From positions 3,038,001 to 3,102,000 of the forward strand of contig NZ_CP102486.1 in assembly GCF_026261605.1 (NCBI RefSeq): 64,000 nucleotides of DNA. The letters run 5' to 3'. Source of the DNA: Dechloromonas sp. A34. GTDB taxonomy: Bacteria; Pseudomonadota; Gammaproteobacteria; Burkholderiales; Rhodocyclaceae. The position numbers were made by a program, and so were the translations under genes. This document shows positions 9,282-30,162 of the stretch, piece after piece (within the stretch, counting starts at the first letter, position 1; the number at the start of each line of letters is the position of its first letter). The notes beneath the pieces were generated by a model. The model did not search any database and was not told where the DNA came from. It saw only the letters and a list, made by a program, of their open reading frames with translations.

Positions 9282-9297
9282 AGCAGAAAGCATGCCG
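9282..9297 (-). promoter_or_regulatory. candidate sigma54 promoter
   Basis: Minus-strand CGGCAT-N5-CTGCT with exact GG-N10-GC spacing, about 100 bp ahead of the basic protein at 8886-9185. Weaker match than others in the island; no palindrome seen upstream. Confidence 0.4.
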
Positions 9298-9314
9298 AGT
9301 TGCCGGGACGCTTT

Positions 9315-10721
9315 TCACAACATGTATTCCCAGAACCCGACCAGCCATTCGAGCAAGCGGCTCTTGACGCCGCGCCGGGACCAGTCGCTGCGCACGACCT
9401 CGTACGAGGCCGACTGGTCGAGCCCGAACAACTGCTGCAGCTCGTTGGCGAAACCGCTGTCCAGTACCAGCAGGTCGGCCTCGAAGTTGTGTACCAGGCT
9501 GCGCCAGTCGAGATTGGTCGAGCCGACGCTGGACCAGACACCGTCGATCACCGCGGTCTTGGCATGGAGCAGCGCATCATGGCGTTCGAAGATGCGGACA
9601 CCGGCTTCCAGCAACTCGCTGTAGCGCGACCGTCCGGCATAGAGCGGCGCCCAGAAGTCGCTGAAGCCGGGCAGCACCAGCCGGACATCGACGCCGCGCC
9701 GGGCGGCATCCTGCAAGGCGAGGCGAATGCGCTCATCGGGCACGAAGTAGCCGTAAGTCAGCCAGACCCGGCGCTGCGCGTGCTCGATGGCCGAGAGCAA
9801 CGCCAGATAGAGTTCGTTGCGTTCGGCCAGCGGATCGGCGGCAACCAGCCGCATCGCCATGCCGCCGGCCCGTACCGCAGGCGGATTGATGCGCGGCTCT
9901 GCCCCGTCGGCGTCGGGGCAGCCCTGGCTGCGCCAGGTGTCGTCGAAGCGTTTCTGGAACTGATCGACGACCGGACCGCGAACGGCGACATGGGTGTCGC
10001 GCCAGCCTTCCGTCCGGCTGGGCGCCGCGCTCCGGCGGCTAAATGAACCGGAACTGTAGACACTGCTGATATTGATGCCGCCGGTGAAGGCGACGCGGTT
10101 ATCGACGATCAGCAGCTTGCGGTGATCGCGGTTGTTCAGGCTCAAGCGGGCATCGCCCTGCAGGCGCAGCGGACTCACCGGATTGAATTCGCAGACGGCA
10201 ATGCCGGCAGCCTTGAGGCGTGCGAAGTATTCATGCGGCGTGGCCAGCGAGCCGATGCTGTCGTAGAGCACGCGTACCGCCACCCGCTCGGCCCGCTTGG
10301 CCTCGAGTGCGCTGGCCAGGCGTTCGCCAATGCCGGCCGGTTCCAGCAGGTAGGTTTCGAGATCGATATGGTGGCGTGCCCGGTTGATCGCGCGCAACAT
10401 GGCCCGCTCCGTCTGAGGGCCGTCGATCAGCAGGCGGGCGCTATTGCCCAGGGCCAGCGGAGCGCTCATTACGGCCTCGACCTCGCCGAGATGGCGGGCG
10501 AGCAGGCCGTGCACATCCTCGCCTTCAATGCGCTTCACCGCGGCGGCGGCTTGCGCAGCGTTCAGCGGTCCCGATTCGTCGTCCACCCTGATCGGCACTG
10601 GCTGCTGGCCGACCTCGGGCAACGGGCGGGCCGGCGGGCGGGTCGCGCAGGCGCCGAGAATCACGCTGAGACACAAAAGCCAAGGCCAACCAGTGGTCAT
10701 CGCGCGATTGTCGGCCCGCAT
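9315..10721 (-). CDS. phospholipase D/cardiolipin synthase-like lipoprotein
   Basis: Phosphatidyltransferase or phospholipase of the PLD superfamily, probably acting on envelope phospholipids. Both HKD motifs are present: HRKLLIVD then GGINISS, and HAKTAVID then GSTNLDWRS. The N-terminus is a lipoprotein signal (WPWLLCLSVILGAC), so the enzyme is predicted to be membrane-anchored outside the cytoplasm, unlike standard ClsA. Start chosen at ATG 10721 because an AAGG Shine-Dalgarno formed by the end of the upstream DUF1328 gene precedes it; ATG 10700 is the alternative. The five-base gap to that small gene suggests translational coupling. Confidence 0.85.
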   Translation of the reverse strand: MRADNRAMTTGWPWLLCLSVILGACATRPPARPLPEVGQQPVPIRVDDESGPLNAAQAAAAVKRIEGEDVHGLLARHLGEVEAVMSAPLALGNSARLLIDGPQTERAMLRAINRARHHIDLETYLLEPAGIGERLASALEAKRAERVAVRVLYDSIGSLATPHEYFARLKAAGIAVCEFNPVSPLRLQGDARLSLNNRDHRKLLIVDNRVAFTGGINISSVYSSGSFSRRSAAPSRTEGWRDTHVAVRGPVVDQFQKRFDDTWRSQGCPDADGAEPRINPPAVRAGGMAMRLVAADPLAERNELYLALLSAIEHAQRRVWLTYGYFVPDERIRLALQDAARRGVDVRLVLPGFSDFWAPLYAGRSRYSELLEAGVRIFERHDALLHAKTAVIDGVWSSVGSTNLDWRSLVHNFEADLLVLDSGFANELQQLFGLDQSASYEVVRSDWSRRGVKSRLLEWLVGFWEYML

Positions 10722-10726
10722 CTCGA

Positions 10727-10888
10727 TTACCTTCGCAGCAGTCCGCCGAGCAGCGAAATCAGCGCCAGCACCAGGAAGATGTAGAAAAGGATCTTGGCGA
10801 TACCGACGGCGCTCGCGGCGATACCGCCGAAGCCGAACAGCGCGGCGATCAATGCGATGATCAGGAATACTGCGGCATAGTGCAACAT
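10727..10888 (-). CDS. DUF1328 (YtjA-like) small membrane protein
   Basis: 53 residues starting [20 protein letters not shown] and containing the family hallmark [17 protein letters not shown]. Two hydrophobic helices are separated by a Gly-rich turn. Shine-Dalgarno AGGAGA lies eight bases before the ATG. Members are small inner-membrane proteins of unknown function, often found with stress genes. It is immediately upstream of the phospholipase-D lipoprotein and probably co-translated with it. A second, divergent family member is at 18137-18310. Confidence 0.88.
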
Positions 10889-10985
10889 GATGGCTTTCTC
10901 CTGTCAGCACCTTGTCGGACTTTTCATCGGCCGGGATCAAGCCGGCCGATGGTCGTTACTGCCGCTCCGGGCAGGCGCCGGCCGA

Positions 10986-11324
10986 TCAGGGCTGCTTGAG
11001 GCGAATGTCGTTGCGCACGGCCTTGACGCCCGGGACCTGATTGGCCAGTTGTGCGGCCCGCTCGATGGCCGTGCTGCTCGACGCAAAGCCAGACAGCTGG
11101 ACCGTGCCCTTGAAAGTCTCGACCTTGACCTCGGTTGCCTTGACTTCCTTGTCCTTGACGAAGGCCGCCTTGACCTTGGCGGTGATCGCCGTATCGTCGA
11201 CATACTCGCCGGCGCTTTCCTTGGCCGGCGGATTCGCGGTGGCCGGCGCCGGATCGTTGGCGATGGCGCCCAGCGGCAGGGCACCGAGAAGCAACAGGGT
11301 GGAAAGGCTGATTTTGTGTTTCAT
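10986..11324 (-). CDS. periplasmic BON-domain protein (OsmY-like)
   Basis: 112 residues: signal peptide (MKHKISLSTLLLLGALPLGA), short Pro/Ala linker, and one BON domain with DDTAITAKVKAAFVKD and GTVQLSGFASS, ending in the typical V(R)NDIRLK. BON domains bind phospholipid surfaces, and OsmY-type proteins support envelope integrity under osmotic stress. Start at ATG 11324 with AAGGAGA. A candidate sigma54 promoter and a shared palindrome lie upstream, opposite the DUF3096 gene. A GC-rich inverted repeat at 10927-10951 follows the gene. Confidence 0.88.
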   Translation of the reverse strand: MKHKISLSTLLLLGALPLGAIANDPAPATANPPAKESAGEYVDDTAITAKVKAAFVKDKEVKATEVKVETFKGTVQLSGFASSSTAIERAAQLANQVPGVKAVRNDIRLKQP

Positions 11325-11502
11325 CGCGAGTCTCCTTGGGTGGGTGAAGGGAAAGTCTCCGGAACGCCATTGCTGCGGCATTGCCGGGAGCTCAATTCAT
11401 GCTAGGCCCTCCCCTGGCGCCTCGCTGTCAGACCTTGCTGAAGCATTTGTAGGAAGGTTCCCGCATGTCCGGGCCACGATACAGCCCCGGTCAACCGGGT
11501 AA

Positions 11503-11518
11503 TGCAAATGCCGCGCCA
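11503..11518 (-). promoter_or_regulatory. candidate sigma54 promoter for BON gene
   Basis: Minus strand reads TGGCGC-GGCAT-TTGCA, one mismatch from TGGCAC-N5-TTGCA with exact GG-N10-GC spacing. Its -12 element lies about 77 bp from the centre of the palindrome at 11572-11590. The BON start is about 170 bp downstream. Confidence 0.65.
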
Positions 11519-11571
11519 CCTGCCGGCGGTCGGCCGTCACGACAGGCTCGCCCAGTAAAATTTGCGGGTTT

Positions 11572-11590
11572 GGCAGTAAGACTTACTGCC
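11572..11590. promoter_or_regulatory. palindrome, candidate activator (enhancer) site
   Basis: Perfect 9-bp inverted repeat GGCAGTAAG-A-CTTACTGCC. It sits roughly midway between two divergent -24/-12 elements (11503-11518 minus, 11650-11665 plus), the position expected of a sigma54 upstream activating sequence. The 450 bp between the two genes holds no coding sequence I can support. Confidence 0.65.
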
Positions 11591-11649: not shown

Positions 11650-11665
11650 TGGTATGGAATCTGCA
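11650..11665 (+). promoter_or_regulatory. candidate sigma54 promoter for DUF3096 gene
   Basis: TGGTAT-GGAAT-CTGCA with exact GG-N10-GC spacing, about 110 bp before the DUF3096 start and about 82 bp from the palindrome centre. Confidence 0.5.
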
Positions 11666-11774: not shown

Positions 11775-11924
11775 ATGACCTTGCACCTTGCCCCCCTGGC
11801 CGCACTGATCGCCGGCATCCTGATCCTGGCTGTGCCCAGCCTGCTCAATTACATTGTCGCCATTTACCTGATCATCATCGGATTGGCCGGAATCTTCGGC
11901 TACCGCTCGACCCGTGTGCCCTAG
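11775..11924 (+). CDS. DUF3096 small membrane protein
   Basis: 49 residues, MTLHLAPLAALIAGILILAV then LLNYIVAIYLIIIGLAGIFG, two hydrophobic helices. This is the whole-family pattern of DUF3096 peptides, whose function is unknown. Start at ATG 11775 is preferred because family members begin just before the HLxPL segment and GGAGAG lies 8 bases upstream; ATG 11769 would add two residues. It is divergent from the BON gene and appears to share its regulatory palindrome. Confidence 0.82.
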   Translation: MTLHLAPLAALIAGILILAVPSLLNYIVAIYLIIIGLAGIFGYRSTRVP

Positions 11925-12359: not shown

Positions 12360-12701
12360 TCAGATTGCAATCAGGCCTGGCCTGCGCAGCGTTGGATGCT
12401 GCGAATCGATCGTTTCTCCTGGCCTCGGGCGAGGCGGCAGTTCCTGGCTGGCGCCAGGGCCGAGCGGAACGCCAAACCGCTGTTCCCCCTCGATCAATGG
12501 CAAAACGATATCGCTCTTCGGCAGCGGGGTTTCCTGGCGCTGGCAGCCGATCAGGGCGGCGCCCAGCATGGCTGCCACGACCAGGGGCGGCAGCTGGCGG
12601 CAAGACTTACGGGCTGGCCGGTAAGGCTTACCGGCTGTTGACCTCGGCACTTGTTCCGTTTCTCCGTCGCTGCCTGGCCGGTGCTTGAGCAAGGTTGTCA
12701 T
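12360..12701 (-). CDS. putative lipoprotein
   Basis: 113 residues if started at ATG 12701, which overlaps the stop of the upstream zinc-finger gene as ATGA, a sign of translational coupling. The N-terminus is long and basic, followed by a hydrophobic stretch and lipobox (VVAAMLGAALIGCQRQ). The mature part is Pro/Gly-rich with no known domain. The perfect palindrome at 12617-12635 lies inside the N-terminal coding part. This could mean the true start is further downstream (for example the ATG of MLGAALIGC) with the palindrome in its leader. Confidence 0.5.
   Translation of the reverse strand: MTTLLKHRPGSDGETEQVPRSTAGKPYRPARKSCRQLPPLVVAAMLGAALIGCQRQETPLPKSDIVLPLIEGEQRFGVPLGPGASQELPPRPRPGETIDSQHPTLRRPGLIAI
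12617..12635. promoter_or_regulatory. palindrome of the CGGTAAG-n-CTTACCG type
   Basis: Perfect 9-bp inverted repeat GCCGGTAAG-G-CTTACCGGC, the most symmetric copy in the window. I find no convincing -24/-12 element at a useful distance on either strand, so its target is unclear. It lies inside the putative lipoprotein frame. Confidence 0.5.
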
Positions 12702-13105
12702 TTAGTCCACGGTCCAAAATTCAGGGGCCGCCTCATGCTTTCTGACCGCCCTGTAACAGCCTGTTCGCAAAAGACCTGGCAATGCGGACAGCGGGTTGCC
12801 GTCGGCTGTGCCAGCAGGCGCTCGAAGGCGATCGCGCTGCCGCAGTCGATGCAGACGACGGCACTGCCGGCGGCAAGACGGGCGCGGGCGGCCTCGATAA
12901 CGCGCAAGTCGCGGACGTCGCGGACCACGGCGCGGCTCGGGTGTTCGCGGATCAGTTCGATGTCGCCGGTGGTCGGCGTCATGCCGGGCGCACTGCAGTC
13001 GCGCAGGCGGGCGACATGTTCGTGCATCGCGGACTCCAGAACTCTCTCCTGGGCATCGAGCAGCTCGAACAAGGTAGCGCGTTGTTCATTGGTCAGTTGA
13101 TTCAT
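12698..13105 (-). CDS. DksA/TraR-type C4 zinc-finger protein
   Basis: 135 residues. An N-terminal coiled-coil helix (LTNEQRATLFELLDAQERVL) is followed by a C-terminal zinc finger CIDCG...RCPHC of the DksA/TraR type. Such proteins insert into the RNA polymerase secondary channel and modulate stringent-type promoters. The motif after the first Cys pair (AIAFERLLAQPTATRC) matches the family. Start ATG 13105 behind GAGAGGAG; the longer frame to 13165 has no ribosome site. Shorter than DksA, so a paralogue rather than DksA itself. Confidence 0.8.
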   Translation of the reverse strand: MNQLTNEQRATLFELLDAQERVLESAMHEHVARLRDCSAPGMTPTTGDIELIREHPSRAVVRDVRDLRVIEAARARLAAGSAVVCIDCGSAIAFERLLAQPTATRCPHCQVFCEQAVTGRSESMRRPLNFGPWTK

Positions 13106-13571: not shown

Positions 13572-13587
13572 AGCAAACACCGTTCCA
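13572..13587 (-). promoter_or_regulatory. candidate sigma54 promoter
   Basis: Minus strand TGGAAC-GGTGT-TTGCT, exact GG-N10-GC. Nearly identical to the element at 21970-21985 (TGGAAT-GGTGT-TTGCT), including the following GG. The palindrome 13670-13688 is about 105 bp upstream, and an imperfect inverted repeat (13626-13649) lies between. It would drive the run 13477 to 12029. Confidence 0.7.
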
Positions 13588-13669
13588 CTCCTTGTTTTTC
13601 CGTGCTGCTGGCCGACTGGCGAGCTAAAGGCCGGTCTAAGACCGCCTTTGGCTCGACTTGGCCGCAATT

Positions 13670-13688
13670 TTTACCGATAACCGGTAAA
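13670..13688. promoter_or_regulatory. palindrome, candidate activator site
   Basis: TTTACCG-ATAAC-CGGTAAA inverted repeat within the context GCAATTTTTACCGAT...CGGTAAATCCTTC, which is repeated almost word for word at 22071-22090. It lies about 105 bp upstream of the minus-strand sigma54-like promoter. Confidence 0.65.
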
Positions 13689-13759
13689 TCCTTCGCCGCC
13701 GCCGGCACGGCTGCCCGCCGCTGCTGCAGTCGACCGGAAATACGCCCTGTTTCACCGCA

Positions 13760-16488: not shown

Positions 16489-16528
16489 GTCCGTCTCCTT
16501 CAACCGCGGGTTGTCAAAGTCTGACCGG

Positions 16529-16544
16529 AGCAAATGGCGCGCCC
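16529..16544 (-). promoter_or_regulatory. candidate sigma54 promoter for SDR-VKOR fusion
   Basis: Minus strand GGGCGC-GCCAT-TTGCT, exact GG-N10-GC, resembling 11503-11518. Its -12 element is about 42 bp before the ATG. A single half-site (AGGTAAAT, ~16671) lies about 130 bp upstream; no full palindrome. Confidence 0.5.
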
Positions 16545-16738
16545 GTTGCCGGCCTGCCCGAGCGCGCCGCTGTCGCTTCCTCAGCGGATTCATGGGGATA
16601 GCTCAGGGTCTGTCCGCCTGTTGTTGCGTTGGAAACTTTTTTCCTGCTGCCGGGTCATTGCAGGTAAATGCTTGTTGCAATTACTGCCATGCGGTTGGCG
16701 GTAGCTGGCGTCGCCGGACTGACGTGAGGAGGTGCGAA

Positions 16739-18072: not shown

Positions 18073-18088
18073 GGGCATACGACTTGCT
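18073..18088 (+). promoter_or_regulatory. candidate sigma54 promoter for DUF1328 gene
   Basis: GGGCAT-ACGAC-TTGCT, exact GG-N10-GC, about 50 bp before the start codon. A TTGCC/GGCAA inverted repeat overlaps just upstream (18056-18071). Confidence 0.6.
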
Positions 18089-18136: not shown

Positions 18137-18310
18137 ATGATCAAACTAGCCATCATCTTTTTCATTATTTCCCTGGTCGCCGGGCTGCTGGGCTTCACCA
18201 ATATCGCGGCCGGGGCGGCAGGCATTGCTAAAATCCTATTCTTCATCGCCCTGACCATCTTCCTCATCGTGCTGATCTTCGGCGTGCTGCTGGGGCTGTT
18301 GGCGTTTTAA
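18137..18310 (+). CDS. DUF1328 (YtjA-like) small membrane protein
   Basis: 57 residues, [20 protein letters not shown] then [20 protein letters not shown] and a second long hydrophobic helix. Start ATG 18137 with AAGGAGC seven bases ahead. Second family member in the window (compare 10727-10888), but only about half identical by eye, so not a recent duplicate. A sigma54-like promoter lies directly upstream. Confidence 0.88.
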
Positions 18311-18417
18311 GCGGATTGCGCTGCCGGCGGCTGACTCCGTCGGTCAATTGAAAAAAATGCTGTACCGTTTGAAAGAATTACCTGTTTCCCGCCTGTTGCG
18401 CCCGTCCGAACTGGCGG

Positions 18418-18487: not shown

Positions 18488-18913
18488 CTACCAGTAGGTC
18501 TGCTGCCCGTAATAGTCATGTACTTGCCGCGCCCAGGTGACGTCCGCCATGGCCGGCCAGTGGTCCTTGTCGAAACCCGGGGCGTTCTCCAGCTTTTCCT
18601 TGTCGGCGTCGAGAATGAAGCACTTGTGGTCCGCATCCAGCGTCAGTGCGCCCCACGGAATGGCGAACAGCTTGTCGGCAATGCCGAGAAAACCACCCGA
18701 CGACAACACCGCGTAGGCTACCCGACCGCTCTGCACATCGATCATGATCTTCTTGATTTCGCCAAGATTCTCGCCCTCGTGATTGACCACATCGTCACCC
18801 TCGAGGGTGTCTGCCGCCATGACTTCGGGGCCGGGGCCTTCGCACGGGACACCACCGACGATTCTGGCCTGCTGGCTACTACTGCTGCTACCTGCATAAG
18901 TTGAACTTGCCAT
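18488..18913 (-). CDS. PRC-barrel domain protein
   Basis: 141 residues with a Ser-rich N-terminus, then a PRC-barrel: DTLEGDDVVNHEGENLGEIK, KIMIDVQSGRVAYAVLSSGG and LFAIPWGALTLDAD are family signatures. Such single-domain proteins are often stress-induced and scaffold-like, with function largely unknown. Start ATG 18913 behind AGGAGAG. A sigma54-like element lies about 125 bp upstream and a strong terminator follows, so this is a monocistronic unit. Confidence 0.87.
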   Translation of the reverse strand: MASSTYAGSSSSSQQARIVGGVPCEGPGPEVMAADTLEGDDVVNHEGENLGEIKKIMIDVQSGRVAYAVLSSGGFLGIADKLFAIPWGALTLDADHKCFILDADKEKLENAPGFDKDHWPAMADVTWARQVHDYYGQQTYW

Positions 18914-19036: not shown

Positions 19037-19052
19037 AGCAATCGGCATGCCT
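19037..19052 (-). promoter_or_regulatory. candidate sigma54 promoter for PRC-barrel gene
   Basis: Minus strand AGGCAT-GCCGA-TTGCT, exact GG-N10-GC, about 125 bp before the PRC-barrel start. Confidence 0.55.
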
Positions 19053-19903: not shown

Positions 19904-20215
19904 CTATCTCAGGCGGATGTCATTGACCACGGACTTGACGCCCTTGACCTTGCGCGTCACTTCGGCGGCCCGCTCGATCTGATCGCGGGAACTGACGAAG
20001 CCGCTCAACTGAACCCGGCCCTTATAGGTCTCGACATTGATCTCGCTAACTTTCAACGCCGAATCCTCGAGGATGGCCGCTTTCACCTTTGTTGTGATCA
20101 CGGTGTCGTCGACATAGTCCCCGGTGCCTTCGTGTCGCGGGGACGAGGCGCAACCGAGCACAAAGGCATAAAGAAGCGCAACAAAAAAGTAGGACATTCG
20201 ATTCAACTGGTTCAT
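19904..20215 (-). CDS. BON-domain lipoprotein
   Basis: 103 residues: lipoprotein signal (MSYFFVALLYAFVLGCASS) and one BON domain (DYVDDTVITTKVKAAILEDS, GRVQLSGFVSSRDQIERA, ending SVVNDIRLR). Close in sequence to the BON protein at 10986-11324, but lipidated instead of soluble. Start ATG 20215 with GGAGG. A sigma54-like promoter lies about 72 bp upstream. The 247 bp between this gene and the DUF421 gene shows no further coding sequence. Confidence 0.87.
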   Translation of the reverse strand: MNQLNRMSYFFVALLYAFVLGCASSPRHEGTGDYVDDTVITTKVKAAILEDSALKVSEINVETYKGRVQLSGFVSSRDQIERAAEVTRKVKGVKSVVNDIRLR

Positions 20216-20286: not shown

Positions 20287-20302
20287 TGCAAAACCCGAGC
20301 CA
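20287..20302 (-). promoter_or_regulatory. candidate sigma54 promoter for BON lipoprotein
   Basis: Minus strand TGGCTC-GGGTT-TTGCA, exact GG-N10-GC. A lone half-site in the context AATTTTTACC (~20360) lies upstream. Confidence 0.6.
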
Positions 20303-20416
20303 GTGTGCTTCCGGCCGGGGTAGCCATCCATTCCTGCCTTGATTTGCCCGTTGACCTGAATTTTTACCAGCCATCCAGAAAAAAATACAAAGTCGGCGCC
20401 CGGCTGGGAAGCCCGT

Positions 20417-21277: not shown

Positions 21278-21294
21278 GGCCATTCTCCTTCGTA

Positions 21295-21819: not shown

Positions 21820-21969
21820 AATGATTTCTCCTTGGTTCAATGAACGATCCGGCTTGTCAAATTCACGGATTGGGCCGGGGTGAGCGGTTCCGGAAGGTGT
21901 TGAGGGCCATGGCCAACTTTGTGCCAACTGCAGGCCGCTGGCGCGGCATGGATCCCGGTACTGACTACC

Positions 21970-21985
21970 AGCAAACACCATTCCA
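21970..21985 (-). promoter_or_regulatory. candidate sigma54 promoter
   Basis: Minus strand TGGAAT-GGTGT-TTGCT, exact GG-N10-GC, about 150 bp before the stress-protein start and about 109 bp from the palindrome centre. Confidence 0.7.
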
Positions 21986-22070
21986 TTGACTGACTTTCCT
22001 CGCCCCGCCTGGCAGACGGTCGGTGAAGGCGCGGGCAAGGAGTCGCACGATGCATCGCCTTATCGCAATT

Positions 22071-22090
22071 TTTACCGATCATTCGGTAAA
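22071..22090. promoter_or_regulatory. palindrome between two divergent sigma54 promoters
   Basis: Perfect inverted repeat TTTACCGA-TCAT-TCGGTAAA. It lies ~109 bp from the minus-strand -12 element (21971-21972) and ~133 bp from the plus-strand one (22213-22214). Classic upstream-activating-sequence geometry within a 514-bp non-coding interval. Confidence 0.75.
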
Positions 22091-22199
22091 TCCTTCTTGG
22101 TCGCCGTTTTGTTGAGTTTCGGAAAAACAGCGCCGGATCTTCGGCCCTACGCCGACTGCCGTTGTCTGCGCCAGCGAAGACGCTAGGCTGGCTGGCGCA

Positions 22200-22215
22200 T
22201 GGCACGCCGCTTGCT
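22200..22215 (+). promoter_or_regulatory. candidate sigma54 promoter
   Basis: TGGCAC-GCCGC-TTGCT, a full consensus -24/-12 match, about 120 bp before the four-cysteine protein gene. The leader after it resembles that at 30276-30367. Confidence 0.8.
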
Positions 22216-22333: not shown

Positions 22334-22750
22334 ATGAAGGAACTCAATATCAACCTGTCCATAACCGCGTTGACCGTTGGCCTCGCCTTCTGCATCACCG
22401 GGCTGGCCGAAGGCCTGTCGAAAGACAGCTACAAGGCGGACAAGGAGTCGATCGCTGCCGAGTACAAGGCGGCCAAGAGCGCCTGTGGCGCCATGTCCGG
22501 CAACCAGAAGGATATCTGCGTCGCCCAGGCGAAAGGCAAGGAGAAGGTCGCCCTCGCCGAACTGGAAGCCAATTACAAGCCGTCGCCCAGGAACGACTAC
22601 CAGGTTCGGGTCGCCAAGGCCGAGGCCGACTATGCGGTTGCCAAGGAGCAATGCGACGACAAGGCGGGCAATGCAAAGGACGTCTGCGTCAAGGAAGCCA
22701 AGGTGGCGGAAGCTGCTGCCAAGGCCGAGGCCACGGCAGCCATGAAGTAG
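22334..22750 (+). CDS. secreted four-cysteine Lys/Ala-rich helical protein (paralogue 1)
   Basis: 138 residues: signal-like N-terminus (NINLSITALTVGLAFCITGL), then a highly charged, Ala/Lys/Glu-rich helical mature part. Two repeats each contain C-x10-C: CGAMSGNQKDIC followed by VAQAKGKEKVA, and CDDKAGNAKDVC followed by VKEAKVAEAAA. Paired disulfides in helical hairpins are plausible in the periplasm. Start ATG 22334 behind AAGGAGG. A close paralogue lies at 30368-30787 with the same promoter type. Databases sometimes label such sequences TolA-like because of composition only; I do not assign a function. Confidence 0.72.
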   Translation: MKELNINLSITALTVGLAFCITGLAEGLSKDSYKADKESIAAEYKAAKSACGAMSGNQKDICVAQAKGKEKVALAELEANYKPSPRNDYQVRVAKAEADYAVAKEQCDDKAGNAKDVCVKEAKVAEAAAKAEATAAMK

Positions 22751-22831: not shown

Positions 22832-23185
22832 ATGAAACATAGTGCAGAAAATTTGCCGCTCCCCGTCGCCAAACTGGCAATCACCGCCGAGCAGGCGCAT
22901 CAAGCCATCGATCAGCTTTCCGAAGCTGCCCGTCCGGCAGTATGGCGCACGGCGGCGAGCGCGCATCAGATGGTGGATCGCATTAGCGGCGCCTCCGACC
23001 GCGTGGCGCAACGGCTGGAGCGAACCGCCACCCGGCTGAAAGATGCCGAGCAGCATCTGCTTGGCGCCAGCCGCAGCTATGCCCACGACAATCCGCTCAA
23101 AATGGCAGGCATCGCATTGGCCGCCGGTTTTCTGATCAGCCTGCTGATCAGTTCCGGCAAGTCGACCCGAGGCAGCGCCAAGTAG
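22832..23185 (+). CDS. DUF883/ElaB-YqjD-like protein
   Basis: 117 residues. A long amphipathic helical N-terminal part (AEQAHQAIDQLSEAARPAVW, SDRVAQRLERTATRLKDAEQ) is followed by a C-terminal transmembrane segment preceded by YAHDNPLKMAGIALAAGFLI, the usual end of ElaB/YqjD tail-anchored proteins that tether ribosomes in stationary phase in E. coli. Start ATG 22832 with AGGAAG. It follows paralogue 1 by 81 bp and probably shares its sigma54-like promoter. Confidence 0.78.
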   Translation: MKHSAENLPLPVAKLAITAEQAHQAIDQLSEAARPAVWRTAASAHQMVDRISGASDRVAQRLERTATRLKDAEQHLLGASRSYAHDNPLKMAGIALAAGFLISLLISSGKSTRGSAK

Positions 23186-23468: not shown

Positions 23469-23831
23469 GTGACCGGGAATAGCGCTACAGACATCAAGAC
23501 CAAGGCACTCCTGGCGTTGTGCGGGAGCATTCTTGCCGGCGGCCTCATGCTTGGCGGCTGCGAGCGCGCGAACACCGAACCGGCGAGCCAGGTGCCGAGC
23601 GCCGCCGCTCCGCGCAGCAACGACGATGCCATCAATGCCCGGGTCAAAGCCCGGCTGGCATCCGATGCCGAACTGTTGCCGCTCCCCATTGCCGTTGAAA
23701 CCCAGGACGGCAGAGTCACCCTGCGTGGCGTCGTACCGCAAGCCATGATCGCGCGAGCCGAGCAGCTGGTCGGGAATGTCGAAGGGGTTCGCGCCGTAGA
23801 CAACCGGCTCGAGCCAGCCGCCGCTTCGTGA
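23469..23831 (+). CDS. BON-domain lipoprotein
   Basis: 120 residues from GTG 23469, chosen because AGGAGG is six bases upstream; upstream ATG 23424 lacks one and spoils the signal. Lipobox GGLMLGGCERA gives a lipidated Cys. One BON domain follows (DDAINARVKARLASDAELLP, GRVTLRGVVPQAMIARAEQL, GVRAVDNRLEP). Third BON protein in the island and the most divergent. It lies between the CcoQ-like peptide and the transglutaminase gene on the plus strand. Confidence 0.82.
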   Translation: MTGNSATDIKTKALLALCGSILAGGLMLGGCERANTEPASQVPSAAAPRSNDDAINARVKARLASDAELLPLPIAVETQDGRVTLRGVVPQAMIARAEQLVGNVEGVRAVDNRLEPAAAS

Positions 23832-23912
23832 TCGAAAGGATTCTCCATGCCTGCCCGGCCCGATGGCCGGCGGTATCGGTTGATCGCCGTTAGCGGACCC
23901 TGACCCCCTCCG

Positions 23913-24842
23913 ATGCTGACCATCCGCCACATCACTATTTACCGCTACGCCCGGCCGGTGCAGATCGGAAGCCATCGACTGATGTTCCGGCCACGTGACA
24001 GCCACGATCTGCGGCTCTTTAGGGCGACCCTGACGATCAGCCCGCCGGCCGCCTCGATCCGCTGGCTGCATGATGTTTTCGGCAATTCGGTGACAATTGC
24101 CGAATTTTCCGCCGAAACAGCCGAACTGCGCTTCCAGAGCGATATCACGCTCGAGCACTATGCCCTTGATGCGCCGTATTTTCCGATCGAGGAATACGCC
24201 CGCACCTACCCTTTCAGTTATTCGAACGACGAAATCCCCGATCTCGCCCGGATGATCGAGCGCCACTACCCGGACCCCGAGCACAAGGTGGATAACTGGG
24301 CCAAGCAGTTCGCCACGCCGGAACCGGGCGCGGCGCCGAGTCTGGTCCAGACGCAGCCGATGCTCGAACGCATGATGCTGGCGATCAAGAACGGTTTTGC
24401 CTATGCGTTCCGTGTTGCCGAGGGCACGCAGACGCCGGTCGAAACGCTCGAGCGCGGCGCGGGCAGTTGTCGCGACTTCGCGCTGCTGATGATCGAAGCG
24501 GTCCGCAGCCTCGGCCTGGCCGCCCGTTTCGTCAGCGGCTACCAATACGACCCGGCCATCGATAACGGCATCGTCGATACGCCGGCCACCGGCGCGACCC
24601 ATGCCTGGGTGCAGATTTACCTGCCCGGCGCCGGCTGGGTCGAATTCGACCCGACCAACGCCATCGTCGGCGGCAAGAACCTGATCCGCGTCGCCGTCGC
24701 CCGCGACCCGCGGCAGGCACTGCCGCTGACCGGAGAATGGGCGGGAAGCCCGGGCGACTATCTGGGTATGGAGGTGTCGGTCGTGGTCTGCGCGGTCAAC
24801 GTCGAGTGCGACGGTCAGGCGCTGCCCCTCACGGACTCGTAA
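23913..24842 (+). CDS. transglutaminase-like cysteine peptidase family protein
   Basis: 309 residues. The N-terminal beta domain (LTIRHITIYRYARPVQIGSH) belongs to bacterial transglutaminase-like proteins. The catalytic core has Cys in GSCRDFALLMIEAVRSLG, His in ATHAWVQIYLPGAGW and Asp in EFDPTNA. No signal peptide, so probably cytoplasmic. The reaction (amidase, peptidase or ligase) cannot be told from sequence. Start ATG 23913 gives the family-typical N-terminus. It ends about 310 bp before the PLD-VTT gene. Confidence 0.88.
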   Translation: MLTIRHITIYRYARPVQIGSHRLMFRPRDSHDLRLFRATLTISPPAASIRWLHDVFGNSVTIAEFSAETAELRFQSDITLEHYALDAPYFPIEEYARTYPFSYSNDEIPDLARMIERHYPDPEHKVDNWAKQFATPEPGAAPSLVQTQPMLERMMLAIKNGFAYAFRVAEGTQTPVETLERGAGSCRDFALLMIEAVRSLGLAARFVSGYQYDPAIDNGIVDTPATGATHAWVQIYLPGAGWVEFDPTNAIVGGKNLIRVAVARDPRQALPLTGEWAGSPGDYLGMEVSVVVCAVNVECDGQALPLTDS

Positions 24843-24855
24843 GATTTTCCCTGTT

Positions 24856-24870
24856 CGGTAAGATTTACAC
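24856..24870. promoter_or_regulatory. imperfect palindrome, candidate activator site
   Basis: CGGTAAGATTTACAC, near-symmetric around GTAA-GAT-TTAC, with a second half-like motif (CGTAAGATTTTCC) 20 bases upstream. It lies in the 311-bp non-coding stretch before the PLD-VTT gene, about 153 bp from the -12 element at 25016. Confidence 0.45.
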
Positions 24871-25002
24871 CCGCGCACGCCGGTTGGATGGCCCGGGAGT
24901 ACCGGCCGTGCGTTGGTTCCATGACCAGGAAATCGTGCCACCCACGCTGCAGCCCCGCGGCGCCTGCGATGCCGGTCGGCCGGGGTGGCAAATGGCGCCC
25001 TT

Positions 25003-25018
25003 GGGCATGCACATTGCA
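25003..25018 (+). promoter_or_regulatory. candidate sigma54 promoter for PLD-VTT gene
   Basis: GGGCAT-GCACA-TTGCA, exact GG-N10-GC. It places transcription start near 25029 and so argues against the long upstream open frame as coding. Confidence 0.6.
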
Positions 25019-25153
25019 GAAGGCTTTACATCCAGTTCAGCCGCGAAGTCGATGATGACCGCCTCCTGCCGCACGCCACTGACAACACTTGACTACCGGC
25101 TTATGGAAAATTGCGCTCTGCCTGCAGCCAGACTGCACCTTCGACAAGAAAAT

Positions 25154-27391
25154 ATGGACGAAAACGGCGCCGCGGCGATCGAAGCCGAGTGGTCGCCGGC
25201 CGCTCCGGGAAGCCTGTTCGCCATCGACCGGAACTGCTGCGCGGTCGGCCGTGCACACCATGTCGGATTGCTGGTGGATGGAGAGGAATATTTTCGCGCC
25301 TTCATCGTCGCTGCCGAACAGGCAACGCACTCGATCAACATCCTGGCCTGGGACTTCAACAGCAAGACCCAACTGCATTTCGCCGAAGATAAGCACGGCC
25401 CGCCGGCCCAACTCGGCGACTTCCTGAACTGGCTGGCGCGCCGCCGGCGCGGCCTGCAGATTCATGTTCTCGACTGGGACTATCCGCTGGTCTTCGGCAC
25501 CGACCGCGAGTTCCGGACGCTCTATGGCTTCGGCTGGAAACCCCATCGCCGCGTCCATATAGCCTACGACAACACCCACCCGGTCGGCGCTTCGCACCAT
25601 CAGAAGATCGTGGTCATCGACGACAGCATAGCCTTCATCGGCGGCTTCGACCTCACCGTGCGGCGTTGGGATACTTGCGCGCATCAGGCCGACGACGACC
25701 GCCGCAGCTATGGCAGCAAGCCCTACCCGCCGTTCCACGACCTGATGCTTGCCGTCGACGGCGAAGCGGCCGGGCAGGTGGCAGAGATTGTTCGCAGTCG
25801 CTGGCTCGCCGCGACCGGCCGCCATTTGCCTCCGGCCCCGCCACAGGAATTGCCCTGGCCGTCCGGCCTGCGCGTCGATCTCCATGAGGTCGACGTGGCA
25901 TTCGCCCGCACCCTGCCCGAGACACCAGGCCAGCCGGGCGTCGCCGAAGTTGAAGCGCTCTTCTTCGACATGATCGCTGCCGCCCGGAAATTCATTTATA
26001 TCGAAAACCAGTATTTCACCGCCCACTGTATCGGCGATGCACTGGCGGCAAGGCTAGACGAGCCTGACGGGCCCGAGATCATCATCGTCGTGCGCCGGTT
26101 CAGCCACGGCTGGCTCGAGGAGTACACCATGCATGTGCTGCGCAGCCGCCTCGTCCAGCGCCTGCGCGCCGCCGACCGCTACGGCCATTTCCATATTTTT
26201 TACCCGCATATCGAGGGGCTGGCCGACAGGACCTGCATCGACCTGCACTCCAAGCTGATGATCGTCGACGACGAAATCCTGCGCATCGGCTCGGCCAACC
26301 TGTCCAACCGTTCGATGGGCCTCGACAGCGAATGCGACGCTGCCATCGAGGCCCGCGGCGACCGGCGCATCGCCAGCGCCATCCGCGACTTCCGCAACCG
26401 TCTGCTCGGCGAACATCTCGACGTGCCAGCCGGCGAGGTCGAGGCGGCAGTCCACCACCAAGGCAGTCTGCACGGCGCTATCGCGGCCCTGGCCGGCCGG
26501 GAGCGGACGCTGCGCCCGCTTGAGGAACTGCCCGATTGGCCGCCGGCCGTGCTCGAACTGGCCAGCGTCGGCGACCCCGCACAGCCGGTGTCACTGGAAG
26601 GCTTGATCGATGAATTCAGCCCGGAGCGATTGACCAGCAGCGAGGACGAGTCCGAAGAGAATGCCCCCTCAGCCGCCCAATCTCGCCTCCGCACCCTGAT
26701 CCGGCGTCTGGCACCGCGCCTGGCGGCGGCCATCCTCGCTGTCGCGGCACTGACTGCGTTGTGGCGCTATACGCCGCTGGCCGAGTGGCTGAACGCCGAT
26801 CACGTCAGCGCCTGGGCGCGTGAGTTTGGCGGCCACTGGTGGGCGCCGCTTGTCATCGTTGCCGCCTACACGCCAGCCTGCATCGTGCTCTTCCCACGGC
26901 CGCTGATAACCTTCGCCGCGGTCATCGCCTTCGGCCCCCACCTCGGCTTCGCCTATGCGCTTTCAGGGATACTGCTCGCCGCGCTGCTCAGCTACCAAGC
27001 CGGCCACCACCTTCCACGGCATACCGTGCGCGACATGGCCGGCCCGCGCCTGCTGCACTTTGCCGAGATTTTGCGACGCCGCAGCCTGCTGACTGTGACG
27101 GCGCTACGCCTGGTGCCGCTGGCACCGTTTGCAGTCGAAGGACTGGTCGCCGCGGCCATTGGCATCCGCCTTTCGCCATTCATGCTCGGCACGCTGATCG
27201 GCATGCTGCCGGGCACCCTGACGACGACGATTTTCGGGCACCAGATCGAAGCCGCGCTGCATGATCCGTCGCAGGTCAATTACGGCCTGCTGGCGGCTGC
27301 CGTTGGTGTCGTTGCCCTGCTCTCGCTGGCCGTCCGCCACTGGCTGGTGGCCCAGCGCCGCCAGCATTCGGATCATGGCCACAAAATCTAA
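25154..27391 (+). CDS. phospholipase D fused to VTT (DedA/TVP38-type) membrane domain
   Basis: About 745 residues. The N-terminal 460 are a PLD enzyme with two HKD motifs: HHQKIVVIDDSIAFIGGFDL, and HSKLMIVDD then GSANLSNRSMGLDSE. A linker of about 110 residues follows, then a C-terminal VTT domain with several helices (CIVLFPRPLITFAAVIAFGP, LSYQAGHHLPRHTVR, LRLVPLAPFAVEGLVAAAIG). The family includes lipid scramblase-like proteins, so the fusion could couple phospholipid cleavage or transfer to membrane movement (inference). The frame is open upstream to 24737 but overlaps the transglutaminase. Starts at 25154 or 25103 both lie after the sigma54-like promoter. Its stop overlaps the next gene by 17 bases. 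Confidence 0.87.
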   Translation: MDENGAAAIEAEWSPAAPGSLFAIDRNCCAVGRAHHVGLLVDGEEYFRAFIVAAEQATHSINILAWDFNSKTQLHFAEDKHGPPAQLGDFLNWLARRRRGLQIHVLDWDYPLVFGTDREFRTLYGFGWKPHRRVHIAYDNTHPVGASHHQKIVVIDDSIAFIGGFDLTVRRWDTCAHQADDDRRSYGSKPYPPFHDLMLAVDGEAAGQVAEIVRSRWLAATGRHLPPAPPQELPWPSGLRVDLHEVDVAFARTLPETPGQPGVAEVEALFFDMIAAARKFIYIENQYFTAHCIGDALAARLDEPDGPEIIIVVRRFSHGWLEEYTMHVLRSRLVQRLRAADRYGHFHIFYPHIEGLADRTCIDLHSKLMIVDDEILRIGSANLSNRSMGLDSECDAAIEARGDRRIASAIRDFRNRLLGEHLDVPAGEVEAAVHHQGSLHGAIAALAGRERTLRPLEELPDWPPAVLELASVGDPAQPVSLEGLIDEFSPERLTSSEDESEENAPSAAQSRLRTLIRRLAPRLAAAILAVAALTALWRYTPLAEWLNADHVSAWAREFGGHWWAPLVIVAAYTPACIVLFPRPLITFAAVIAFGPHLGFAYALSGILLAALLSYQAGHHLPRHTVRDMAGPRLLHFAEILRRRSLLTVTALRLVPLAPFAVEGLVAAAIGIRLSPFMLGTLIGMLPGTLTTTIFGHQIEAALHDPSQVNYGLLAAAVGVVALLSLAVRHWLVAQRRQHSDHGHKI

Positions 27392-28299: not shown

Positions 28300-28764
28300 T
28301 CAGGTTTCGGCGGCATAAACGTCATTGCCGGCCCCGTCGACCACCTTGACATGCACCGGGATGCCCCGCCGGATGCTGTCGGTGACCACGCAGTAATTCT
28401 CGAATTGCTGCATGCAGCGACCGAAATTCGCCACTTGCCCGGCTATCTCCTGCAGCCGGATGACTACCTCGATGCCGCCGATCCGCTGGTGACCATGCTC
28501 GTTCGGGGCCAGTGTCGTCGTCACCTCGGCCTGCAGCGTGGCCGGCTCCTGCTGGAACTTGCGCAAGCAGAACAACAGGCTGGCGGTCAGGCAGTTGCCT
28601 ACCGCCACCGCCAGCACCTGGCTGGCATTGGGGCCTTCGCCGGCGCTCAGAGGGCCGGGTTCGTCGAGCACAATATCCGGCACGCCGGGCTGCCCGAAGC
28701 TGGCTTCGAACTGATAGCCCTGCTTCTGTGCCAAGTGCACCGTGAAAACCGTCGGTTCGAACAT
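28300..28764 (-). CDS. OsmC family protein
   Basis: 154 residues with both redox-active Cys of the OsmC/Ohr family in context: first in VGNCLTASLLFCL, second in ENYCVVTDSIRRGIPV. These enzymes reduce organic hydroperoxides with thiols. The PGPLSAGEGPNASQVLAVA segment is typical of the YhfA/OsmC-like branch rather than Ohr. It is 20 bp downstream of the ferritin-like gene, probably one operon. In the 142 bp to the preceding plus-strand gene only a G5-TTTT-C6 hairpin (28204-28220) is notable. Confidence 0.87.
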   Translation of the reverse strand: MFEPTVFTVHLAQKQGYQFEASFGQPGVPDIVLDEPGPLSAGEGPNASQVLAVAVGNCLTASLLFCLRKFQQEPATLQAEVTTTLAPNEHGHQRIGGIEVVIRLQEIAGQVANFGRCMQQFENYCVVTDSIRRGIPVHVKVVDGAGNDVYAAET

Positions 28765-28784
28765 GACGTTATTCTGCGGACCGC

Positions 28785-29348
28785 TCAGGCGGCCGGCGTG
28801 TGGCTGGCACCGATCTGGTGGATCAGGGTGCGCAGGTCTTCGGCATGCTCTTCCTCGACCGCCAGCACCTCCTCGAACAGACGACGGGTGGTCGGGTCGG
28901 CATCACCCAGGTAAGCGATGATTTCCTTGTAGCTTTCGATGGCGATGCGTTCGGCCACCAGGTCTTCGCGAATCATGTCGACGATGCTCTTGCCCTCGAG
29001 ATATTCAGCATGGCTGCGGGTACTCAGGGTGTCGGGCGAATAGTCCGGCTCGCCGCCCAACTGTGTGATGCGGTTGGCGAATTTCTCGGCATGCAGTTCT
29101 TCCTCTTGGGCATGCTGCAGGAACTCCTGCGCGATGCTCAGCGAAGTTAGACCCTTGGCCGAATGATAGTGGCGCTTGTAGCGCAGACTGCAGACGATCT
29201 CGGTGGCCAGTGCTTCATTGAGCAGGCGGAGGACGGTATCCCGATCGGCACCGTAGTCGTCGGTAATGGCGCCCTCCTCGATATGACGGCGGGCGCGGAA
29301 ACGAATCGTCGCGATGGACGAAAGATTGGTGGTGCTTGGTGCAGGCAT
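28785..29348 (-). CDS. ferritin-like (bacterioferritin-type) protein
   Basis: 187 residues forming a four-helix bundle with diiron ligands spread over NEALATEIVCSLRYKRHYH, LQHAQEEELHAEKFANRI, LVAERIAIESYKEII and AVEEEHAEDLRTLI. The ExxH pairs (EELHAE, EEEHAE) are the signature of ferritins and bacterioferritins that oxidise and store iron. Longer than typical bacterioferritin by an N-terminal extension. Start ATG 29348 with AAGGAGC; the longer frame to 29690 runs over the CBS gene. With OsmC it suggests oxidative-stress defence. Confidence 0.88.
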   Translation of the reverse strand: MPAPSTTNLSSIATIRFRARRHIEEGAITDDYGADRDTVLRLLNEALATEIVCSLRYKRHYHSAKGLTSLSIAQEFLQHAQEEELHAEKFANRITQLGGEPDYSPDTLSTRSHAEYLEGKSIVDMIREDLVAERIAIESYKEIIAYLGDADPTTRRLFEEVLAVEEEHAEDLRTLIHQIGASHTPAA

Positions 29349-29490
29349 TTGATGCTCCTTGCCGGATAGCCCGAAACGCCTCCCGTCGGCCGGGAAGGGC
29401 GGAATTACGGCTCGCCCCGACTGGACGTGCAGGCGGGCCAGGCCCCAGCTTTTCTTGATGGAAAGGGATGGCAAACCGAGCTCGTTGCCG

Positions 29491-29913
29491 TCAGTGGCCG
29501 CGCGGCACAGACAGCCCGCACACTGTGTCGCCCGCCACTTCCGATCCTTCGCAATTGGCGATATCCGCCAGTGCCAGGATGCCGACCAGATGCTTGTCAT
29601 GGTCGACGACAGGCAGCCGGTGCAGCTGGATGTCGCCCATGTTCCGGGCGACATCCGAGAGTTCGGCGTCGTCGAAACAGTATTTGACATCCTGGCTCAT
29701 CACCTCGCGCACCGTGGTCGCATTGGGCGATTTTCCATTGGCCACGGCCCGGATGGCGATGTCGCGATCGGTGATCATGCCGACCAACAGGTCATTCTCA
29801 CCGACCGGCAGACTGCCGAGGTCGCACTCGGCCATGATCGTCGCGACGTCGCGAATGCTCTGGTCGGGATTGGCGATGTGGACCTGGCGGGTCATTGCTT
29901 CGCTTACTCGCAT
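29491..29913 (-). CDS. CBS-domain pair protein
   Basis: 140 residues comprising two CBS domains: MTRQVHIANPDQSIRDVATI with LVGMITDRDIAIRAV, then REVMSQDVKYCFDDAELSDV with LHRLPVVDHDKHLVGILA. Stand-alone CBS pairs bind adenine nucleotides and act as energy sensors or regulators. Start ATG 29913 with AAGGAGA. A sigma54-like promoter lies about 42 bp upstream and shares a palindrome with the divergent paralogue-2 gene. Confidence 0.9.
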   Translation of the reverse strand: MRVSEAMTRQVHIANPDQSIRDVATIMAECDLGSLPVGENDLLVGMITDRDIAIRAVANGKSPNATTVREVMSQDVKYCFDDAELSDVARNMGDIQLHRLPVVDHDKHLVGILALADIANCEGSEVAGDTVCGLSVPRGH

Positions 29914-29953
29914 GATGGTTCTCCTTCACGTTGGTCAATCGAGCTTGTTGCGC

Positions 29954-29969
29954 AGCAAGGACTATTCCT
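29954..29969 (-). promoter_or_regulatory. candidate sigma54 promoter for CBS gene
   Basis: Minus strand AGGAAT-AGTCC-TTGCT, exact GG-N10-GC, ~85 bp from the palindrome centre. Confidence 0.6.
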
Positions 29970-30032
29970 GCACCGGCCAGGGCGACCAGCCGGTCGAAGA
30001 GGCAAACAGTCCGCCCGGATTTGCCGGCGGGT

Positions 30033-30047
30033 CGGTAAAACTTACGG
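30033..30047. promoter_or_regulatory. palindrome between two divergent sigma54 promoters
   Basis: CGGTAAAACTTACGG, CGGTAA/TTACCG half-sites with one mismatch. Flanked by 29954-29969 (minus) and 30147-30162 (plus), in a 454-bp non-coding interval. Confidence 0.6.
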
Positions 30048-30146
30048 CAACTTTGGTATCCGGCCGGCACCATTGCCCAGGTCGCTGGCGCGGCCATCGC
30101 CAGGCCAAGCTCGCGGCGACCTGCCGCGTCTTGGCAGCCGGCGATT

Positions 30147-30162
30147 TGGCACGGCGTTTGCT
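30147..30162 (+). promoter_or_regulatory. candidate sigma54 promoter
   Basis: TGGCAC-GGCGT-TTGCT, full consensus -24/-12 match. The four-cysteine paralogue starts about 205 bp downstream after a leader resembling that at 22247-22333. Confidence 0.8.

Follow-up and report, generated by a model that had tools for sequence, protein, structure and literature searches.

A tandem dyad site and sigma54-type promoters mark a probable stress regulon beside a proposed kinase–activator pair in Dechloromonas sp. A34

The question

Families of small envelope and stress proteins that elsewhere are hallmarks of RpoS lie together in a 20-kb block, the island, of the Dechloromonas sp. A34 genome. What turns them on? 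We analyzed the 64-kb stretch of DNA around them (the window; Table 1). Very probably the genes of this block form a single dedicated stress regulon, a conclusion we draw from its many sigma54 promoters and from a tandem site that recurs beside the same uncharacterized response regulator in other genera. We are largely confident that a hybrid kinase and an NtrC-type enhancer-binding protein (EBP) drive it, through tandem dyads and sigma54 promoters.

Table 1 Features of the window (positions count from its first nucleotide)
Feature	Position	Strand	Remarks
Hybrid histidine kinase, C-terminal part	1..2511	+	PAS-PAS-HisKA-HATPase-REC
Sigma54 enhancer-binding response regulator (EBP), 489 aa	2709..4178	+	REC, AAA+, Fis-type HTH; proposed activator
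Small protein g8886	8886..9185	-	no Pfam match; homologue adjoins EBP in 4 other genomes
-24/-12 element CGGCATGCTTTCTGCT	9282..9297	-	weak, 10.0; before g8886
DUF1328 small membrane protein	10727..10888	-	
BON-domain protein 1	10986..11324	-	
-24/-12 element TGGCGCGGCATTTGCA	11503..11518	-	before BON1
Tandem dyad A	11555..11586		1 of 16 mismatches; flanked by divergent promoters, 36 and 63 bp away
-24/-12 element TGGTATGGAATCTGCA	11650..11665	+	score 11.0; before DUF3096 gene
DUF3096 small membrane protein	11775..11924	+	
Tandem dyad B	12600..12631		1 mismatch; -24/-12 site absent within 200 bp
DksA/TraR-type zinc-finger protein	12698..13105	-	
-24/-12 element TGGAACGGTGTTTGCT	13572..13587	-	
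Tandem dyad C	13664..13694		3 mismatches; 76 bp from 13572
-24/-12 element GGGCATACGACTTGCT	18073..18088	+	before DUF1328 gene 18137-18310; upstream tandem dyad not found
Possible tandem dyad, doubtful	18350..18381		4 mismatches; flanked by convergent genes, with no nearby promoter
PRC-barrel protein	18488..18913	-	
-24/-12 element AGGCATGCCGATTGCT	19037..19052	-	before PRC-barrel gene; tandem dyad not found
BON-domain protein 2	19904..20215	-	
-24/-12 element TGGCTCGGGTTTTGCA	20287..20302	-	before BON2
Tandem dyad D, weaker	20357..20388		4 mismatches; 54 bp from 20287; absent from the earlier note's list
Crp/Fnr-type protein	20417-21283		HTH_Crp_2 domain
-24/-12 element TGGAATGGTGTTTGCT	21970..21985	-	before gene 21295-21820
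Tandem dyad E	22065..22096		3 mismatches; flanked by divergent promoters, 79 and 103 bp away
-24/-12 element TGGCACGCCGCTTGCT	22200..22215	+	perfect
Four-cysteine secreted protein 1	22334..22750	+	no Pfam or NCBIfam match
DUF883 (ElaB-like) protein	22832..23185	+	
BON-like lipoprotein 3	23471..23832	+	its homology matches coincide with BON matches
Phospholipase D / VTT-domain protein	24737..27391	+	start probably about 25.15 kb
Tandem dyad F	24839..24868		1 mismatch; 134 bp from 25003
-24/-12 element GGGCATGCACATTGCA	25003..25018	+	
OsmC-like protein	28303..28764	-	no -24/-12 promoter assigned
Ferritin-like protein	28788..29348	-	no -24/-12 promoter assigned
CBS-domain protein	29491..29913	-	
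-24/-12 element AGGAATAGTCCTTGCT	29954..29969	-	weak, 9.8; before CBS gene
Tandem dyad G	30014..30045		5 mismatches in total, one of the two dyads good; flanked by divergent promoters, 44 and 101 bp away
-24/-12 element TGGCACGGCGTTTGCT	30147..30162	+	perfect
Four-cysteine secreted protein 2	30368..30787	+	no Pfam or NCBIfam match
PHA synthase (PhaC)	30831..32714	+	43 bp behind four-cysteine secreted protein 2

Promoter-like elements crowd the island

With a -24/-12 matrix whose weights follow the consensus TGGCACG-N4-TTGCW, and strong defined as a score of at least 13, nine strong matches fall between 9000 and 30200 and two in the other 42.8 kb of the window. Dinucleotide-based resampling of the island, repeated 60 times, gave a mean of 0.83 and a maximum of 5. 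Eight of the nine are intergenic; the ninth, at 23616 on the minus strand, sits within the BON3 gene and is probably a chance match. Once weaker matches are added, 12 elements are both intergenic and directed at a gene, so the earlier note's count of about 14-15 was slightly high. A further element at 19123 (plus strand) is too close to its ATG to leave room. The genome holds two perfect plus-strand matches, 22200 and 30147, both in the island. A whole-genome search with TGGCACGNNNNTTGCW at up to two mismatches was uninformative (752 vs 688 in the control). The host has one rpoN gene (G000:C1:4713173-4713634, E 5e-66), and PhaC is probably carried on one transcript with the four-cysteine secreted protein ahead of it.

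One tandem element behind six palindromes

The earlier note had seen six CGGTAA/TTACCG palindromes in the island, five of them near a -24/-12 site. All six places are real and the five pairings hold, with 12600 as the exception; what changes is the nature of the site, for these are not copies of one palindrome but views of one tandem element. It consists of two 11-bp dyads, GTAAnnnTTAC, 19-21 bp apart from centre to centre, and can be read in two arrangements, as the inverted GTAAnnnTTAC or the everted TTAC-N8-10-GTAA. A model trained on tandem sites from other genomes ranked eight places of the window highest (24839, 11555, 12600, 18350, 22065, 13664, 20357 and 30014, in that order), all within 9-30.2 kb. 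The first six outscore every one of 100 resampled windows (highest, 22.2), 20357 at 19.8 exceeds only their 95% level (19.4), and 30014 at 16.7 lies below it. Six of the eight are 36-134 bp from a -24 box and the other two have no promoter in range; dyad sites of group I EBPs typically lie roughly 70-150 bp upstream of the promoter. For the promoters at 9282, 18073 and 19037 a tandem site was not found in the window.

The element is also rare. Across the 4.76-Mb genome, allowing up to 3 of 16 mismatches and gaps of 8-10, there are 10 tandem sites (5, 2 and 3 for the three gaps), five of them in the island, and the three sites with at most one mismatch are all there. Four of the five island sites have a -24/-12 partner, as against none of the five elsewhere, which have no sigma54 site (score at least 11.5) within 300 bp. 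This was the genome-wide check that the earlier note had named as a possible refutation, and the refined element proved rare outside the island.

Two other motifs were tried and rejected. The single palindrome CGGTAAGNCTTACCG, at up to two mismatches, gave 19 genome sites, four in the island; its reversed control gave 52, so by itself it is unconvincing and too loose a model. CGGC-N5-GCCG came top when palindromes were counted in the 10 upstream regions of the window itself (6 vs 0.32, with GTAA-N3-TTAC second at 3 vs 0.00), and it is a common G+C-rich word, as dense in controls as in relatives (30 vs 33 per 100 kb).

A kinase and its neighbor

The probable activator, which the earlier note does not mention, is encoded 7-27 kb from the tandem sites and directly behind the hybrid kinase. 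The complete kinase gene, which encodes 999 aa, begins some 490 bp ahead of the window (L223:1513-4509); the putative N-terminal membrane/sensor region of the protein, read from the sequence only, has no Pfam match. The EBP carries the three domains that define group I, the NtrC family: REC (PF00072), AAA+ (PF00158, Sigma54_activat) and a Fis-type HTH (PF02954). Its sigma54-contact loop reads GSFTGA for GAFTGA, as in seven of seven aligned homologues, and its recognition helix is SLKTLYNRL. The solved structures that best match its sequence are NtrC-family proteins. Among NCBIfam models it scores below the cut-off of all 25 listed of 101 matched, including AtoC (400.5/714), NtrC (373.9/558.6), NtrX (330.5/600) and ZraR (326.1/760), and among the 120 homologues listed the only names given are 'AtoC', 'NtrC family' or 'sigma-54 dependent regulator'.

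The same company in other genera

We examined one set of 43 relative loci from 38 genomes, same-genus ones included, and compared a set of 46 loci with stretches from the same genomes; five of the intended controls yielded no such stretch, and L228, L239, L241 and L258 are short. Tandem matches overlapping within 15 bp were merged before these counts and those by helix class. Island gene families (BON/PRC/PLD/ferritin-type) stand beside EBP homologues in 30 of 40 other genomes and in none of 35 control stretches. The loci compared in this way hold 22 tandem sites in 875 kb, as against one in 638 kb of controls, and 66 strong sigma54 sites as against 13; the lone control tandem site, in L243, is without a nearby sigma54 site. 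A sigma54 site lies 20-140 bp from eight of the 22 tandem sites, compared with 2.7% of random places (p=6e-8, optimistic, as are the other p values here, because the genomes are related); the remaining 14 lack a good sigma54 site at such a distance. Perfect tandem sites occur in loci L057, L178 and L221, and in L186, L190 and L056 the site lies upstream of the EBP gene itself. When palindromes were counted without bias upstream of the 97 sigma54 sites of the 43-locus set, TACA-N6-TGTA came first (5 vs 0.00) and GTAA-N3-TTAC next (5 vs 0.07).

The pattern has its gaps. Of 77 island-type genes in relatives, only 15 have a strong sigma54 site no farther than 450 bp away, compared with 6% of other ORFs (p=5e-4). 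Burkholderia multivorans (L259) has no tandem site at up to four mismatches; Cupriavidus (L261) has one, with two mismatches, and a sigma54 site was not found near it. An exact tandem search of the order found 13 of 399 genomes, three with the EBP, about equal to the reversed control. Among the matches listed for a scan of genome contigs with the EBP alignment, otherwise unrelated EBPs, two proved informative: Gulbenkiania mobilis (72%) and a Burkholderiales MAG. The same-genus genome G545 (86% EBP identity) offers a contig of 10.8 kb that bears no island genes. The co-occurrence of tandem and sigma54 sites is kept in other genera and, with the concentration of the site in the island, supports the earlier proposal of one sigma54 regulon; one amendment is that the shared site does not cover every gene, since the PRC-barrel, DUF1328 and 9282 promoters are without it.

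The recurrence also tracks the recognition helix. When all 256 half-sites were counted in the 28 loci with helix SLKTLY, GTAA was the most enriched (22 vs 1.24 expected, p=3e-20; next best, p=1.6e-6). Tandem sites occur in 12 of 23 genomes with an SL helix and in none of 17 with other helices (p=3e-4), the class being that of the homologue found by search: G464, for which the automated reading gave no helix, is counted as SP, and G255 and G351, classed SP, each encode another EBP, one with SLKT, and lack a site. The 11 SL-helix genomes without a site at up to three mismatches in the stretch examined include the closest (G043, G545 and Gulbenkiania); G043 has one with four mismatches that precedes a strong promoter by 55 bp. 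A search for alternative sites in loci of the other helix classes turned up mainly G+C-rich motifs that resemble base composition, and we trust none of them.

Other ways to read the sites

Might the tandem site belong to a different activator of the host? There are 19 strong EBP matches to choose from, and in those 11 SL-helix genomes the linked EBP has no site nearby. Yet the sites follow this EBP and its helix type across genera, and SLKTLYNRL together with GSFTGA is found in no other host EBP with a readable HTH (that of one, L028, is unreadable), so we think another activator improbable. A binder encoded within the island is less probable still. Crp-type proteins bind palindromes, and the Crp/Fnr-type protein has the domain for it, but its homologue was found in none of 43 (E 1e-4) or 46 (E 1e-5) relative loci although the sites are there, and we set it aside for that reason; in-phase tandem dyads at 36-134 bp before -24/-12 promoters are, moreover, the habit of EBPs.

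The dyads could instead be negative sites, bound by a repressor of the same genes while the sigma54 promoters are activated from elsewhere. Site 12600, with no promoter nearby, and 11555, just 36 bp from a -24 box, would suit such a role; most paired sites lie well upstream, where repression is less expected, and the element follows an EBP, so we consider this, like the Crp-type binder, very unlikely. That AT-rich palindromes and loose GG-N10-GC matches were simply read into intergenic DNA has in its favor that relaxed patterns are no commoner genome-wide than reversed controls. The tight element is enriched, however, and the same-genome controls already reject chance, which leaves this explanation with next to no credibility.

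How the switch may work

On the preferred reading, activation through the linked EBP, the membrane hybrid kinase would pass phosphate to the adjacent regulator, whose dimers would bind the two in-phase dyads upstream of the -24/-12 promoters. The bound regulator would form an AAA+ ring and, by DNA looping, prompt sigma54 polymerase to open the promoters of the envelope and stress genes, with one common site serving divergent promoters at several targets. The inducing stress is probably envelope or osmotic.

Group I relatives such as NtrC, AtoC, ZraR and NtrX share the REC-AAA+-Fis HTH architecture, a neighboring kinase gene, upstream dyads and sigma54 promoters; they differ in family scores and in having GAFTGA. 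To our knowledge, the tandem site and target genes here are unlike theirs. The RpoS-dependent general stress genes of E. coli include osmY, osmC, elaB and ytjA, and the families BON, OsmC, DUF883 and DUF1328 are shared, whereas the island has sigma54-type promoters and an activator site. PrsK/PrsR-RpoN, which serves PEP-CTERM genes in floc-forming betaproteobacteria (for example PMC9850573), resembles the island system in combining sigma54 with a response-regulator EBP, in its envelope or exterior genes and in bacterial class; the EBP here falls below the cut-off for PrsR (TIGR02915, PEP_resp_reg; 356.4 vs 502.6) and its targets are BON/PRC/DUF883-type stress genes. The low-oxygen-activated (lxa) locus of Burkholderia cenocepacia likewise groups stress genes together, a BON protein and six universal stress proteins among their products, and is discussed with an Anr/FixK-like (Crp-type) regulator, and the excerpts of those papers mention no sigma54 activator (PMC6127331, PMC9104464). 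No universal stress protein matched among the island proteins scanned, a subset of ORFs. A general proposal, given in the title of one paper, has sigma54 regulons acting for the cell exterior (PMC3162934); in the main text of that paper the term 'PRC-barrel' is absent and 'BON' matches just once, in 'bonds'. Among the open-licence PMC papers listed by literature searches, none ties sigma54 or RpoN to BON, PRC-barrel or DUF883 targets.

What it may mean

A wider view is possible, and we hold it tentatively: across Burkholderiales (sensu GTDB), a sigma54 envelope or general-stress response with a dedicated kinase–EBP pair and its own tandem-dyad code may run parallel to RpoS, the DNA code shifting with one recognition-helix residue (SL vs SP, SA or CV before KTLYNRL). 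One generically named EBP subfamily is now tied to a DNA site and a probable regulon, together with a directly testable rule leading from recognition helix to site. Genes that are RpoS hallmarks would here require ATP-driven, signal-gated activation by sigma54, a stress response held off until it is signaled.

Putative sigma54 promoters and a tandem site in the island

Our sigma54 matrix took its weights from the consensus TGGCACG-N4-TTGCW, and we called a site in the window strong at a score of 13 or above. By this measure, nine strong sites fall between 9000 and 30200 against two in the other 42.8 kb of the window. Resampling the island 60 times on a dinucleotide basis yielded 0.83 such sites on average and never more than 5. 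The earlier note had counted 14–15 such elements by eye; the observation held up, but the intergenic, gene-directed -24/-12 elements number 12, weaker ones counted in. Behind them lie genes for BON proteins, DUF3096, DUF1328, a PRC-barrel protein, four-cysteine proteins, PLD-VTT and, with a weak element, a CBS protein. The PhaC gene is 43 bp downstream of a four-cysteine gene.

The same note had listed six palindromes as activator sites. All are indeed part of a recurring element, but they turned out to be two arrangements of one tandem site, which emerged once neighboring palindromes were read jointly: GTAAnnnTTAC-N8..10-GTAAnnnTTAC, with dyad centers 19–21 bp apart, about two helical turns. 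A model built from other genomes' sites ranks the eight tandem sites tabulated below first across the 64 kb, a test that is not fully blind since its training places were found with the core first noticed in the window and relatives. Six of the eight score above the best of 100 resampled windows (22.2); 20357 scores 19.8, under that best and above the 95% level (19.4), and 30014 scores 16.7, below both. The distance from tandem site to -24 box is 36–134 bp in six of the eight, and three window promoters have no tandem site.

Features of the window (positions in nucleotides; tandem sites named by start)
Feature	Position	Remarks
Linked sigma54 enhancer-binding protein (EBP)	2709-4178	response regulator
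Tandem site	11555	≤3 of 16 mismatches; flanked by divergent promoters
Tandem site	12600	≤3 of 16 mismatches; no promoter in range
Tandem site	13664	≤3 of 16 mismatches
Tandem site	18350	weaker and doubtful; no promoter in range
Tandem site	20357	weaker
Tandem site	22065	≤3 of 16 mismatches; flanked by divergent promoters
Tandem site	24839	≤3 of 16 mismatches
Tandem site	30014	weaker; flanked by divergent promoters
Promoter region	13572-13694	CGCAATTTTTACCGAT...CGGTAAATCCTTC; near-duplicate of 21970-22096
Promoter region	21970-22096	TGGAAYGGTGTTTGCTGG
Epimerase/SPW-domain gene	13867-16593	
Perfect 190-bp tandem duplication	14594-14973	two copies, inside the epimerase/SPW-domain gene
Crp/Fnr-type regulator gene	20417-21283	

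Three local features deserve mention. The near-duplicate promoter regions indicate that a promoter was duplicated inside the island. The Crp/Fnr-type regulator, whose gene lies in the island but did not turn up next to the EBP in any relative we looked at, is a possible local modifier. As the 190-bp unit does not hold a whole number of codons, the reading frame of the epimerase/SPW-domain gene is lost after the second copy of the duplication, which is either a recent mutation or an assembly artifact.

The site across the genome and in relatives

At three or fewer mismatches, the host genome (4.76 Mb, a single contig) carries three tandem sites at gap 10, two at gap 9 and five at gap 8, of which the island holds three, one and one. 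A sigma54 site accompanies four of the five island sites, and none of the five outside has a correctly oriented one (≥11.5) within 300 bp. The control for composition, the same pattern reversed, gave 14, 4 and 12 sites respectively, as counts with no list of positions.

For relatives we took 10–40 kb around EBP homologues in 40 other genomes (875 kb), with 35 same-genome stretches (638 kb) as controls. Island families (BON, PRC, PLD, ferritin, four-cysteine, g8886 and others) adjoin the EBP in 30 of 40 genomes and occur in none of the 35 control stretches. Sigma54 sites scoring at least 14 number 66 against 13, and tandem sites 22 against 1, spread over 12/40 genomes versus 1/35 controls (p=0.002). 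In three genomes (loci L186, L190 and L056) the site also lies upstream of the EBP gene itself.

When all 4-bp palindromes with gaps of 0–12 were enumerated upstream of 97 sigma54 sites in 43 relative loci, TACA-N6-TGTA and GTAA-N3-TTAC headed the list. In the window's own 10 upstream regions CGGC-N5-GCCG came top (6 vs 0.32), followed by GTAA-N3-TTAC (3 vs 0.00); we set the former aside as a general G+C-rich word, whose density per 100 kb is 33 for relatives and 30 for controls. Among 64 half-sites of equal composition GTAA came first, with nine matches at two or fewer mismatches and at most one for the others listed. Around unrelated EBPs it had no match in the 34 loci of matching GC content, and six, each with three mismatches, in all 78 loci.

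The linked regulator and its recognition helix

PF00158 has 27 matches in the host, 19 of them strong, and the combination of GSFTGA with the helix SLKTLYNRL belongs in the host to the linked EBP only (the EBP at locus L028 has no readable HTH). A hybrid kinase of 999 aa precedes it, its gene starting outside the window. The EBP does not reach the cut-off of any of the 25 NCBIfam models listed, out of 101 matched. Its closest organism-named homologues among the matches listed are from Azonexus MAGs (88% and 86%), which makes the host probably a relative of Azonexus. Counting the window's own, homologues occur in 7/121 family genomes at E≤1e-120 and, at E≤1e-140, in 34/399 order genomes and 3/60 genus genomes; the EBP is therefore patchy even within the genus.

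Tandem sites at three or fewer mismatches are confined to genomes whose homologue has the SLKT helix (12/23 vs 0/17 with SP, SA or CV as its first residues, p=3e-4). Scanning all 256 half-sites in 28 SL loci gave GTAA 22 times against 1.24 expected from control stretches (p=3e-20; next-best half-site, p=1.6e-6). Because the helix groups are related, with the 17 non-SL genomes forming some five clades, these p values overstate the association. Two of those non-SL genomes carry an additional EBP of the SLKT type and still have no tandem site. This tie between helix and site is the best evidence here, from sequence, for the linked EBP as the putative binder.

In many genomes two EBPs of the family lie close together, mostly divergently (L182-L185, L187-L189, L191, L193, L194, L196 and L259), which suggests a form of the system with paired activators. 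On a Comamonadaceae plasmid (L260, CP099607.1, 13101-16437), a 61% homologue sits near a plasmid-borne rpoN, a single small gene separating the two; they may form a private sigma54-activator pair.

Extent of the probable regulon and a proposed mechanism

Several results count against a single regulon run by the linked EBP. Eleven of the 23 SL genomes, nearest relatives among them, have no tandem site at three or fewer mismatches in the fetched DNA; a Burkholderia multivorans replicon with BON genes and an EBP homologue of 54.6% identity has none at four or fewer; a Cupriavidus replicon has a single site, without a promoter. Of the relatives' 22 tandem sites, 14 lack a good promoter in range, and an order-wide pattern search found no enrichment of the site by genome. 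A strong sigma54 site lies close upstream of only 15/77 island-type genes in relatives versus 6% of other ORFs (p=5e-4). The regulon may therefore extend to genes whose sites are weak or lacking, or other activators may serve part of it.

Sigma54/EBP regulons as such are known; for this EBP subfamily, its tandem site and its stress-gene targets, we found no report in our searches of the open-licence PMC literature. Phosphorylation by a kinase, dyad binding and sigma54 opening are all standard for group I EBPs. Here the kinase would phosphorylate the linked EBP, which would then bind the tandem dyads and, so bound, open the sigma54 promoters; our tests addressed only the DNA parts of this scheme and their association. 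The gene families suggest that the inducing signal is envelope or osmotic stress.
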